The position numbers were made by a program, and so were the translations under genes. From an uncultured Bacteroidales bacterium (GTDB lineage: Bacteria; Bacteroidota; Bacteroidia; Bacteroidales; UBA11471), in contig CALUZW010000004.1 of assembly GCA_944325415.1 (NCBI GenBank), positions 1 through 64,000 on the forward strand: a stretch of 64,000 nt of DNA, written 5' to 3'. The notes beneath the pieces were generated by a model. It saw only the letters and a program-made list of their open reading frames with translations. It had not been told where the DNA came from and did not search any database. This document shows positions 1 through 14,754 of the stretch, in pieces. Every line of letters begins with the position of its first letter. Position 1 is the stretch's first letter.

Positions 1-487
1 GCTGTATTCGGTAGAACAAAGATACAATTTTGAAAGCAATTTACAACAAGCGACTTTGAAATATGACACAGAATAAGCTGTATTCGGTAGAACAAAGATA
101 CAATTTTGAAAGCAATTTACAACAAGCGACTTTGAAATATGACACAGAATAAGCTGTATTCGGTAGAACAAAGATACAATTTTGAAAGCAATTTACAACT
201 AACGTCGTAATCTATTTCCCAAAACCTTGCTGTATTCGGTAGAACAAAGATACAATTTTGAAAGCAATTTACAACGAAGCCGAAGGTGGCCTTATTACCC
301 TTAATTGCTGTATTCGGTAGAACAAAGATACAATTTTGAAAGCAATTTACAACCTTTCCGGAGCATTTCAAGTCTTTATCAAAGCTGTATTCGGTAGAAC
401 AAAGATACAATTTTGAAAGCAATTTACAACCAATGGGAGTATATTTGTACCTCTAACCAAGCTGTATTCGGTAGAACAAAGATACAA
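1..487 (-). CRISPR. CRISPR array, type II-C-like, 47-bp repeats (partial, runs off left edge)
   Basis: Six full identical 47-bp repeats start at 1, 77, 153, 229, 307 and 384; a seventh, at 461-487, keeps only 27 bp. Spacers are 29-31 bp (48-76, 124-152, 200-228, 276-306, 354-383, 431-460), and the first two are identical. Read on the minus strand the repeat begins GTTGTAAATTGC and ends GAATACAGC. That length and form are typical of Bacteroidota type II-C (Cas9) arrays, so crRNAs are inferred to be made leftward. Each full repeat also carries TTG at repeat positions 2-4 and TATCTTTG at 24-31, exactly 19 bases apart, which is a complete Bacteroidota promoter on the minus strand. The truncated repeat keeps TATCTTTG but has lost the upstream element. 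No cas gene or leader is inside the window; cas9-cas1-cas2 would be expected to the left. Confidence 0.96.
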
Positions 488-517
488 AAGAGACAAGCCT
501 CTCGACCCGCCTCTTTT
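486..517 (-). terminator. Strand-specific hairpin at the array boundary, terminator-like
   Basis: On the minus strand this 32-base segment folds into a continuous 14-bp stem (10 Watson-Crick and 4 G-U pairs) closed by a GAGA (GNRA-type) tetraloop. The foot is AAAA pairing with UUUU, followed by GUAUCUUUG. On the plus strand the wobble pairs become A-C mismatches, so the fold favours leftward RNA. Its 3' arm touches the truncated CRISPR repeat. It most likely ends transcripts coming from the promoter at 623-652; termination itself is inferred. Confidence 0.6.
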
Positions 518-617
518 ATAATATGGAGTTACAGGCTTATCCATATACCCGATTGGACATGATAACGTCACGCTAAGCAACCATCTGATTGCCTTTCTCC
601 GGATGGACTTATCGGTA
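486..617 (-). ncRNA. Candidate CRISPR-flanking small RNA
   Basis: A consensus promoter at 623-652 should start leftward RNA near 617, and a GNRA-capped terminator-like hairpin ends the segment at 486, giving about 130 nt. No convincing reading frame fills it. Other possible stems are CCATC/GATGG (5 bp) near 5' and ATATGG/CCATAT (6 bp) in the middle. Position and shape recall a tracrRNA, but complementarity to the repeat is limited to GAAAGGCAAT against ATTGCTTTC (9 pairs, one bulged G), far less than a usual anti-repeat. It may instead be an array leader RNA or an unrelated sRNA. Confidence 0.4.
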
Positions 618-622
618 TGTTG

Positions 623-652
623 CAAATATATGGCTTTTTGTCTGTTGAACAA
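623..652 (-). promoter_or_regulatory. Promoter directed toward the CRISPR array
   Basis: On the minus strand TTG (652-650) is followed after exactly 19 bases by TATATTTG (630-623), matching the Bacteroidota -33/-7 consensus. Transcription would start near 617 and run left. There is no gene between it and the array. Confidence 0.7.
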
Positions 653-933
653 AAAATAGCGACAAAAAACGACATTTATTGTCGGACTCACTGGCCTACC
701 CACTCTCCTGGCTCCCTACGCGGACATCTCTCCCGGCAACAAAGATGCCCTGACGACAGATTCCCCCCAAAGGGGACGTAGCCCGTTCCAGCCCCACACC
801 TACACGTCGGGGGCAAAGGCAGCAAAAGACAGTCATACGGGCAACTGAATATAGCGGCTTGTATCTTCGGACTTATGGGGTGAGGGTTTTGCAAAGCAAA
901 GATCTTATTCTATAATGAGGCGGTGCGAAACAG
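653..933. other. Gene-free stretch between CRISPR flank and tRNA-Arg
   Basis: No plausible gene is seen on either strand. The only structure noted is a small hairpin, CGACA/TGTCG, around 670-684. The short open frames here have no start context and no recognisable protein features. Confidence 0.5.
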
Positions 934-975: not shown

Positions 976-989
976 GGTATAGATGGTAG

Positions 990-1061
990 TACTCTCGCCG
1001 GGAATCGAACCCGGATTTAAAGTTTAGGAAACTTCCGTTCTATCCATTGAACTACAAGAGC
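990..1061 (-). tRNA. tRNA-Arg (anticodon CCT)
   Basis: The minus strand folds as a full cloverleaf: acceptor GCTCTTG/CGAGAGT, D stem GTTC/GAAC, anticodon stem GAAGT/ACTTT with loop TTCCTAA, and T stem CCGGG/CCCGG with loop TTCGATT. Loop positions 34-36 are CCT, reading the AGG arginine codon. The discriminator base is A and CCA is not encoded, so it must be added after transcription. Confidence 0.95.
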
Positions 1062-5067: not shown

Positions 5068-7326
5068 ATGGTCAAACGCCGCAAACTCCGCCCCGAAGTC
5101 AAAGCCACCAAACCCTTTGCCGAGCACATCAGGGCCATCTTCAACGAAAGCTTCCGCACCCTCTATAACCCCCGGCAGATTGCCCGCCGCGTAGGCGCCA
5201 AGAACGAAATGCAGCGACGCGAAGTGGCCGCCCTGCTCGAAAACATGGAGCAAGAAGGATTCCTCCTGCAAGAATCGCCGGGCCGTTACCGCCGCAACCC
5301 GGCCGACCTCTTCCTGAGCGGTACATTCACACGCAACCACCACCGCCTCTCCATCACCCCCGACAACGGCGGCGAAGCCATCGAAGTGAGCGAAAGCAAC
5401 GCCCGCCATGCCCTTTCGGGCGACCGGGTGGAGTATATGCCCATCAACCACGGCAAATACAAAGGCGAGGCCGAAGTTACCGACATTATCGAACGGCGCG
5501 CCGCCCAGCAGATAGTGGGCACGGTCGAGAAGACAGGACCGCGGGAGCTCCTCCTCAGGGTCGACAGCCGCGCCTTCGACTCGCACGTCTACATTCCCGC
5601 CACAAAGACCCTCGGTGCCCAGGAGGGCGAGAAGGTCATTGCCCGGCTCACCGACTGGCCCCTCTACAACGACAGCCCGCAGGGCGAAATTGTAGAGATA
5701 CTGGGACAAAGCGGCGAAAACGATACCGAAATGCACGCCATACTCGCCGAGTTCGGCCTGCCCACACGATATCCCGAGGAGCTCGAAAAAATCGCCGACA
5801 CCATCGACGAGAAAATCTCCGCCGAAGAGATAGCCCGGCGCGAAGACTTCCGCCAGGTTACCACCTTCACCATCGACCCGGCCGACGCCAAAGACTTCGA
5901 CGATGCCCTCTCCCTGCGCCGCACCCCCGACGGAGAGTGGGAGGTGGGCGTACACATTGCCGACGTAACCCACTACGTCAAGGAGGGAAGCCCCATCGAC
6001 CGCGAAGCCTACCAGCGGGGCACGTCGGTATACCTGGTCGACCGCACCGTACCCATGCTGCCCGAGCGGCTGTGCAACCACATCTGCTCCCTGCGTCCGC
6101 AGGAAGAGAAGCTCTGCTTCTCGGTCATCTTCACCCTCGACGAAGAGGCCCATGTAAAAAAATCGCACATCGCCCGCACGGTCATTCGCTCCGACCGCCG
6201 CTTCGCCTACGAAGAGGCACAACAGGTCATCGAGACAGGCCACGGCGACTGCGCCGAAGAGATACTTACCCTCAACCGTCTGGCCATGGCCCTGCGCAAG
6301 CAACGCTTCGCCCACGGAGCCATCGACTTCGACCGGGAAGAGATGAAATTCATCATCGACGAGAAAGGCCGCCCCATCGGCGTCTACAACAAGGTGTCGA
6401 AAGAGGCCAACAAACTCATCGAGGAGTTCATGCTGCTGGCCAACCGCACCGTTGCCGAAGCCATAGGCCGCACCCCCAAGGGGAAGACACCGAAAAGCTT
6501 TGTCTACCGTGTCCACGACAACCCCGACCCCGAAAAGATGGCCTCCCTCTCGGAGTTTGTCAACCGGCTGGGGCTGAAACTGAAAGCCACCGGCACCCGG
6601 AACGAAATCACCGACTCCATCAACCAGATGCTCTCACAGGTACACAACACCCCCGAGGAGAATCTCATCTCGACGCTCACCATACGCACCATGGCCAAAG
6701 CCGTGTATACGACCGACAACATCGGCCACTACGGACTGGCCTTTGACTACTACACCCACTTCACCTCACCCATACGCCGCTACCCCGACATGATGGTGCA
6801 CCGCCTGCTCGAACGCTACCTGAACAACGGCCGTTCGGTCGACAAGGAGAAACTCGAAGAGAAGTGCCAACATGCCTCGGACATGGAACAGCTCGCCGCC
6901 AACGCCGAACGGGCCTCTATCAAGTACAAGCAGGCCGAATACCTCGGCGAACGGCTGGGCGAGACCTACGACGGAACCATATCGGGCATCTCCGACCGCG
7001 GTCTCTATGTCGAAATCGACGAAAACAAGTGCGAAGGCTTCGTGCCCATGCGCGACCTCGACGACGACTATTACGAGTTCGACGAGAAAAACTACCGCCT
7101 CGTGGGGCGCCGCACCCATCGCCACTACTGTCTCGGCGACCCGCTGCGCATCGTCATAGCCCGTGTCGACCTCGAACGCCGCCAAATCGACTTTGCCCTC
7201 GAAGGGCATCTCTCCGACCGGCCGGCCGCCACACCCGTTGCCAAGAAACCCGGCAAAAGCGCCAAAGGCCTCTCGCCGAAAGATTTCGGCCTGAAAAAGG
7301 CCCGTCGCCACAAACGCCGCAAATAA
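5068..7326 (+). CDS. rnr: Ribonuclease R
   Basis: Processive 3'-5' exoribonuclease of the RNB (RNase II) family that degrades structured RNA. The 752-residue product has an N-terminal helix-turn-helix-like region, cold-shock/OB folds, the RNB domain with the metal-binding aspartates in DPADAKDFDDALSL (about 270-284), an S1 domain from about 635 (DGTISGISDRGLYVEI), and a basic lysine/arginine tail as in RNase R. The ATG at 5068 is chosen because a start at 5020 would lie inside the gyrB terminator. It is followed after 33 bases by parE and probably leads that operon. Confidence 0.95.
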   Translation: MVKRRKLRPEVKATKPFAEHIRAIFNESFRTLYNPRQIARRVGAKNEMQRREVAALLENMEQEGFLLQESPGRYRRNPADLFLSGTFTRNHHRLSITPDNGGEAIEVSESNARHALSGDRVEYMPINHGKYKGEAEVTDIIERRAAQQIVGTVEKTGPRELLLRVDSRAFDSHVYIPATKTLGAQEGEKVIARLTDWPLYNDSPQGEIVEILGQSGENDTEMHAILAEFGLPTRYPEELEKIADTIDEKISAEEIARREDFRQVTTFTIDPADAKDFDDALSLRRTPDGEWEVGVHIADVTHYVKEGSPIDREAYQRGTSVYLVDRTVPMLPERLCNHICSLRPQEEKLCFSVIFTLDEEAHVKKSHIARTVIRSDRRFAYEEAQQVIETGHGDCAEEILTLNRLAMALRKQRFAHGAIDFDREEMKFIIDEKGRPIGVYNKVSKEANKLIEEFMLLANRTVAEAIGRTPKGKTPKSFVYRVHDNPDPEKMASLSEFVNRLGLKLKATGTRNEITDSINQMLSQVHNTPEENLISTLTIRTMAKAVYTTDNIGHYGLAFDYYTHFTSPIRRYPDMMVHRLLERYLNNGRSVDKEKLEEKCQHASDMEQLAANAERASIKYKQAEYLGERLGETYDGTISGISDRGLYVEIDENKCEGFVPMRDLDDDYYEFDEKNYRLVGRRTHRHYCLGDPLRIVIARVDLERRQIDFALEGHLSDRPAATPVAKKPGKSAKGLSPKDFGLKKARRHKRRK

Positions 7327-13541: not shown

Positions 13542-14633
13542 ATGACTTTCTTCTCCAAAACCTATCGGATACTGGCTCTGGCCATAAACCTCGTGGCAGG
13601 CGGGCTGCTGCTCATATCGGCATACAGTTACCTCTTTCCACCCGACCGGTTCCTGTTTCCGCTCTTCTTCACGCTGGCCTTTCCGGCCTTTTTCTTCGTA
13701 GAGTGCCTGCTGCTCCTGCAAGTATTTATACGGCCACGAAAATACGTCCTGTTTCCCCTCGCATTCCTGCTGCTGTCGTTTCATGCGGTACAGAACTACT
13801 TTCCGATGCACTTCGGCGGGAAAGACAACGGCGAGAAGAAAATCGTTCTGCTCACCTACAACATACAGAGTTTCGGACAGGCCCGTGCCACCAACGGAGG
13901 GAAAAGCAACACTCTTCTCGACCTGCTGCGCGACAGCGGCGCCGACATCATCTGCCTGCAAGAGTACAGCACGGGAAGGCTGTCGCAAAAGGCCATAAAC
14001 AGGATACTCTCGGACTACCCCTACCGGCATGTGTTCAAACCCTCGGCATGGGACTCGGGCATCGCCTGCTACTCCAAATACCCAATCAGGAAAACCGAGA
14101 CCATACCCTTTGACAACTCGCAGAACAATGCCTGCCTCTACCAGTTCGACATCGACGGCAAGCGGCTGACACTCATCAACTGCCACCTCGAATCGAACCA
14201 CCTCGAACCCGACGACAAGGAGTTGTACGAACAAATTGCCAAGCACCCCACACAAACGACCGAGCTGCTGCCCGCCGCCAAAGACAAGCTGCTGAAAAAA
14301 CTCGCCCGCGCCGGACGGATTCGCGCCCAGCAGGCCCGCACCATACGCAACATCGCCGACAAGATTCCGGGAGCCGTCGTCATCTGCGGCGACTTCAACG
14401 ACACGCCCCAGTCCTATACCTACGAGACCATACGGGGCGACTTCGACGATGCCTACGTCGCCACCGGATTCGGCCCGGGCATCACCTACAACGAGTCGGG
14501 GCTCTGGTTCCGCATCGACCACATCCTGCACAACGATGCCCTGCACGCCGTCGACAGCCGCGTCGTTCGCCAAAAATGTTCCGACCACTATCCCATGCAG
14601 GCCACCCTGCAATGGGAGGCCGAAAATGATTAG
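13542..14633 (+). CDS. Membrane-anchored endonuclease/exonuclease/phosphatase-family protein
   Basis: The 363-residue product has three hydrophobic segments in the first about 90 residues, then a DNase I-like (EEP) domain: LLTYNIQSF, IICLQEYS (catalytic Glu), INCHLESNHL, VICGDFNDTP (Asp/Asn) and CSDHYPMQATL with the catalytic His. All key acidic residues and the terminal SDHxP motif are present. Family members cut DNA, phosphodiesters or inositol phosphates; the substrate cannot be inferred. It follows the second rhomboid gene by 6 bases, hence the same operon. Confidence 0.88.
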   Translation: MTFFSKTYRILALAINLVAGGLLLISAYSYLFPPDRFLFPLFFTLAFPAFFFVECLLLLQVFIRPRKYVLFPLAFLLLSFHAVQNYFPMHFGGKDNGEKKIVLLTYNIQSFGQARATNGGKSNTLLDLLRDSGADIICLQEYSTGRLSQKAINRILSDYPYRHVFKPSAWDSGIACYSKYPIRKTETIPFDNSQNNACLYQFDIDGKRLTLINCHLESNHLEPDDKELYEQIAKHPTQTTELLPAAKDKLLKKLARAGRIRAQQARTIRNIADKIPGAVVICGDFNDTPQSYTYETIRGDFDDAYVATGFGPGITYNESGLWFRIDHILHNDALHAVDSRVVRQKCSDHYPMQATLQWEAEND

Positions 14634-14651
14634 CGAAATTTTTCCTTAATA

Positions 14652-14683
14652 TTTGCATACAAATGTACATTCGATTAATTTTG
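14652..14683 (+). promoter_or_regulatory. Promoter of frdCAB
   Basis: TTTG (14652-14655), 20 bases, TAATTTTG (14676-14683), a full match. A leader of about 65 bases is predicted before frdC. Confidence 0.82.
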
Positions 14684-14754
14684 TGGCTTCAAAAAGATGG
14701 TTCAATAGGCAACATATTATAAGACAAATACTAACTCCAAAAAACTCAAATCTT

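Follow-up and report, generated by a model that had tools for sequence, protein, structure and literature searches.

Intergenic small RNAs (sRNAs) of the Bacteroidales have been described in Bacteroides thetaiotaomicron, where those of the GibS class are about 100–150 nt long, start at a sigma-ABfr promoter and end at an intrinsic terminator. The sigma-ABfr promoter is used by 76% of the intergenic sRNA candidates of this species, and 27 of its 49 high-confidence intergenic sRNAs are strain-specific (PMC7366714). The tracrRNA of Bacteroidota type II-C CRISPR systems is likewise a short promoter-terminator RNA gene close to CRISPR components; in Riemerella an anti-repeat was reported upstream of cas9, and the same report detected no promoter within the repeat (PMC5006608). 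In Flavobacterium columnare and F. psychrophilum, transcription starts from promoters embedded in the repeats and runs towards the variable (leader) end of the array (PMC8092290, PMC10309648); of the repeat promoter, only the TTG part is mentioned in these two reports.

Here we analyse, in an uncultured Bacteroidales bacterium of the gut, a promoter-terminator unit that lies between a tRNA-Arg gene and a type II-C array (Table 1). The first-pass annotation had proposed that it is a divergent tracrRNA, a leader RNA or a new CRISPR-linked sRNA. We regard it, with a probability of roughly 0.6, as an intergenic sRNA gene that is specific to its lineage and otherwise of the usual Bacteroidales type, and on this best reading its place beside the array is happenstance.

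Table 1. Features of the analysed locus (window coordinates)
Feature	Position	Strand	Remarks
Type II-C array	1..430	-	crRNA sense: minus strand
Array repeats	1-47, 77-123, 153-199, 229-275, 307-353, 384-430	-	each with TTG-N19-TATCTTTG
Oldest spacer of the array	431..460
Truncated terminal repeat of the array	461..487	-	27 nt; -7 box TATCTTTG kept; -33 TTG and anti-repeat-pairing half lost
Intrinsic terminator hairpin	483..520	-	17 pairs, GAGA loop; T tract enters truncated repeat
Predicted RNA, about 130 nt	486..618	-	MFE -42.9 kcal/mol, z -3.1
Predicted hairpin, 12-nt loop	521..546	-	loop segment 540-533 (AUAAGCCU)
Predicted four-way-junction domain	549..615	-	closing helix CCGAU/AUCGG and three hairpins; pair probabilities 0.67-1.0
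Sigma-ABfr-type promoter	623..653	-	-33 TTTG (653-650), 19-nt spacer, -7 TATATTTG (630-623)
Weak upstream terminator-like hairpin	664..684	-	CGACA-ATAAA-TGTCG-TTTTTT
tRNA-Arg (CCT)	989..1061	-	own promoter 1110-1079; own terminator about 976-935

Genomic setting and direction of the array

The genome is a draft of 2.17 Mb in 28 contigs (83% complete) and represents one strain of the species. The window, i.e. the whole stretch analysed, comprises the first 64 kb of contig C4 and starts within the array, whose repeats are 47 nt long. The assembly divides inside the array, and contig C22 carries its other end together with cas9-cas1-cas2, a layout that is of type II-C. At both contig ends that break inside the array the outermost spacer is doubled in tandem (window 1-152; C22 1-153), possibly an artefact of assembly across the repeat and not a true duplication. 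The spacer at 275-306 matches the chromosome of the same organism exactly over 32 nt (C3:129988-130019), within a gene for a 793-aa lipoprotein-like protein, which we take to be of the fasciclin type, beside SusC/SusD-type genes; by this match it is a predicted self-targeting spacer, close to the old end of the array. A sister species (G003) has the entire locus on a single contig, in the order cas9-cas1-cas2, array, truncated repeat, tRNA-Arg and a gene that we read as recO-like. The neighbouring genes are those of the window locus, and the Cas9 proteins of the two genomes are 94% identical.

Read in the crRNA sense, each intact repeat holds a complete Bacteroidota promoter. In a survey of 47-nt type II-C repeats of Bacteroidota (window 1-430 and loci L089-L166), the bipartite sigma-ABfr motif TTG-N18-21-TAnnTTTG was found in 32 of 52 distinct repeats, compared with 0.38 in shuffled sequences. 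The Riemerella repeat (L151) also carries the bipartite motif, unlike what was stated for it (PMC5006608). The repeat-embedded promoters point towards the leader end, and the unit therefore precedes the array when read in the crRNA sense and borders the array's old end, distal to the leader. The flank on the cas2 side is nearly identical in our genome and G003, whereas the trailer flank differs, and by this comparison of sequences the cas2 side is the conserved, leader-like end. Thus, although the unit resembles a CRISPR leader in being a non-coding stretch that adjoins the array, it sits at the opposite end, against a truncated repeat and in a flank that differs from that of G003, which rules it out as the leader and disposes of the proposed leader RNA in this sense. 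Truncated last repeats in general mostly keep the -7 box and lack the -33 half. In a Pedobacter array (L148, near 16922) an inverted copy of the GTTGTGATTTGCTTTCAT half of the repeat lies beside the last repeat, and the two form a long hairpin.

Comparison with the tracrRNA

The canonical tracrRNA of this genome was found on the plus strand of C22 at about 5589-5680, upstream of cas9 and divergent from it, as TATATTTG-AAAA-CAATTTTGAAGCAATTCACAA-TAAGGATTATTCCGTTGTGAAAACATT... with a GC hairpin and a T run after it. Its co-folding with the repeat yields a gain of -13.9 kcal/mol, matched by 2 of 200 shuffles, so that the search for an anti-repeat near cas9 outside the window suggested by the first-pass annotation was successful. 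The core of the Bacteroidota tracrRNA (CACAATAAGGATTATTCCGTTGTGAAAACAT, with small variations) was recognized upstream of cas9 at nine of the ten loci checked and was not found by a simple pattern in the tenth (L090); it is absent from window 486-652. An anti-repeat-like stretch near 880-905 was dropped, as it scores no higher than unrelated GC-rich stretches of the same scan.

Unlike the tracrRNA, the unit has no anti-repeat and does not pair with the repeat: co-folding of its RNA with the repeat, which had likewise been suggested as a check, gives a gain of 0.0 kcal/mol, and all 200 shuffles are at least as good. The true tracrRNA beside cas9 and this null result rule out the unit as a tracrRNA, divergent or otherwise. 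A regulator akin to scaRNA, which would pair with the repeats of crRNAs, the tracrRNA or the cas9 mRNA, can be considered in the same context. Apart from the position beside the array, nothing speaks for either kind of RNA, and the co-folding gains with the tracrRNA (-0.2 kcal/mol; 193 of 200 shuffles as good) and with the cas9 5' region (77 of 200) are no better than those of shuffles; we find both extremely improbable.

Promoter and terminator

The sequence at 653-623 of the minus strand (TTTGTTCAACAGACAAAAAGCCATATATTTG) matches the Bacteroidota sigma-ABfr promoter perfectly, as had been claimed for 623-652, except that the element extends by one position. TTTG-N18-21-TAnnTTTG occurs five times in the 64 kb, against 0.39 expected, and none of 100 shuffles reaches five. 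The other four sites lie upstream of tRNA-Arg, of tRNA-Glu/rpsT, and of two genes that from their translations we read as HU-type and sdhC-like. With the looser pattern TTG-N18-21-TAnnTTTG there are 11 sites, namely the six intact repeats, the unit and four positions upstream of genes. The promoter of the unit is probably a real one, as judged from sequence, because outside the repeats the motif is otherwise found in this window only before genes. A stretch of 19 bp around the -7 box (621-639) is identical to the region upstream of a secD-like gene in the same genome, and counterparts of this stretch are present in all members of the genus.

About 105 nt past the promoter, on the same strand, the terminator abuts the truncated last repeat, into which its 3' arm extends. 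The strand-specific hairpin of 14 pairs with a GAGA (GNRA) loop that was described earlier at 486-517 is confirmed as the core, and it can be extended to 17 pairs (520-483). With -22 kcal/mol it ranks 16th among the 735 terminator-like hairpins of the window; its T tract is short and interrupted (TTTTGTATCTTTG). The segment 486-618 folds far better than expected on the minus strand only (z = +0.1 on the plus strand).

The hairpin could serve mainly as an insulator that blocks transcription coming from the side of tRNA-Arg, so that crRNAs would be made from the repeat promoters only. A Prevotella array (L098) does have a strong terminator hairpin directly against its truncated repeat (near 14631-14700), behind other sequence, and another array (L149) has one nearby. 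However, tRNA-Arg has a strong terminator of its own, most array ends have no such hairpin, and the promoter would be left unexplained, which makes this function very unlikely.

The predicted RNA

That the unit is transcribed, precisely where its RNA starts and stops, how this RNA folds and what it targets are what we infer from the sequence. From the distance to the -7 box, the RNA would start at about 616-618. The claim that the segment is free of genes was corroborated: none of five reading frames matched Pfam, and the ATG frames that close inside the transcript have only 3 and 7 codons. A comparison of region 450-990 with the 4227 models of Rfam gave no match up to E 10. Support for the predicted four-way junction is suggestive only (when the 71-nt domain was shuffled, 26 of 500 sequences folded equally well), and the structure of the 101-nt body without the terminator is not significant (45 of 500). 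Hence it is the terminator hairpin, not the body, that gives the unit more structure than expected by chance.

This result, together with the fact that the unit is conserved in no relative searched, would agree with there being no functional RNA at all, but a promoter that has decayed or arose by chance and a leftover terminator in fast-evolving DNA, or a spurious transcript without a role. We consider this unlikely, given that a full bipartite promoter is followed at such a short distance by a strong terminator on the same strand, and that all other non-repeat matches of the motif in the window precede a gene.

The order of promoter, structured RNA, terminator and downstream array on the same strand is also that of attenuators which switch between a terminator and an antiterminator. 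The 540-533 loop can pair with the 3' arm of the terminator (500-493, AGGCUUGU), and the unit could be a 5' leader RNA in which transcription from the promoter at 623 halts at the terminator unless this pairing occurs; with antitermination, polymerase would enter the array and express the oldest spacer. That spacer lacks a full promoter of its own, because the -33 box is missing from the truncated last repeat (there is no motif match there), and in the crRNA sense the unit directly precedes the array. The antiterminator helix of 8–10 bp has -15.9 kcal/mol, with 45 of 1000 shuffles as good in a pairing test that was chosen post hoc, after the sequence had been seen. On the other hand, the antiterminator structure is less stable by 5.6 kcal/mol, the intact repeats have their own promoters and thus the array has no need of the unit, and the arrangement is missing at 34 other array ends and in the sister species. 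In contrast to described attenuators, the unit carries neither a known ligand domain nor a leader peptide, its competing helix is weakly supported and it has no relatives. As the arrangement is missing elsewhere and the test was post hoc, we have low confidence in this mechanism and regard it as quite unlikely; that it acts as a switch by which the oldest spacer is expressed only under some condition is more doubtful still.

Phylogenetic distribution

Among 35 type II-C array ends, a promoter about 130 nt upstream combined with a terminator against the last repeat was found only in the one described here. Two of the remaining 34 (L103 and L133) have isolated matches to the promoter motif, and a general rule of sRNAs at array ends was rejected after this test. 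In G003, about 150 nt of unrelated sequence separate the truncated repeat from tRNA-Arg, with no unit. Its absence from this syntenic CRISPR locus and from the 34 array ends does not bear out the idea of a new CRISPR-linked sRNA.

Homologs were not found in any other source searched. A blastn search of 393 genomes of the order Bacteroidales with the segment returned only short chance matches, and the genomes of sister species, searched with the segment and the RNA, contained no homolog. The same holds for 58 sources that include about 57 type II-C loci, for phages and plasmids, and for an exact pattern search of IMG/VR. A covariance search of related genomes, as proposed in the first-pass annotation, was run on 149 genomes with a single-sequence model and revealed no relative; the sole weak hit (G122) is an unrelated terminator, a perfect palindrome behind a protein-coding gene. 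The combination of a strong anti-repeat elsewhere and no conservation, which had been named as evidence against the unit, indeed tells against a link to CRISPR, but not against the existence of an sRNA.

In the sister species G006 (locus L205, contig C14) two isolated near-complete CRISPR repeats, at about 1514-1543 and 2338-2362, lie about 820 bp apart and flank two small genes. In G004-G006 (L169, L170, L171) an ORF6N-domain gene directly follows tRNA-Arg, and its promoter is nearly identical to the initial ~33 nt of the CRISPR repeat. Such solo repeats may be remnants of arrays that were reused as promoters.

Conclusion

We favour an sRNA gene because the unit consists of a promoter, about 130 nt and a terminator, without coding content and without relatives. 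It thus has the features by which Bacteroidales intergenic sRNAs are recognized, i.e. its own sigma-ABfr promoter, an intrinsic terminator at the 3' end and no protein-coding content, and the small-RNA gene layout suggested earlier is supported by a promoter and a terminator that both look real. Like the often strain-specific sRNAs of B. thetaiotaomicron it would be lineage-specific; it differs from the GibS class in that no homology was found in our searches, that it abuts a CRISPR array and that its transcript is a predicted one. In the proposed scheme, sigma-ABfr RNA polymerase would start on the minus strand at about 617 and transcribe about 130 nt, which would fold into a compact RNA, and would stop at the GAGA-loop terminator just ahead of the array. 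By analogy with ordinary Bacteroidales intergenic sRNAs, the product may base-pair with targets in trans by means of its accessible loops. The crRNAs would come from the promoter inside each repeat, with the tracrRNA encoded upstream of cas9, and the unit would take no part in this.

If the unit were an attenuator, the CRISPR array would be controlled from its old end, which to our knowledge has not been reported. The analysis removes a false tracrRNA candidate and places the true tracrRNA beside cas9. On the favoured reading, the unit would also be an example of a promoter-terminator unit that adjoins an array and yet is an sRNA gene unrelated to it.
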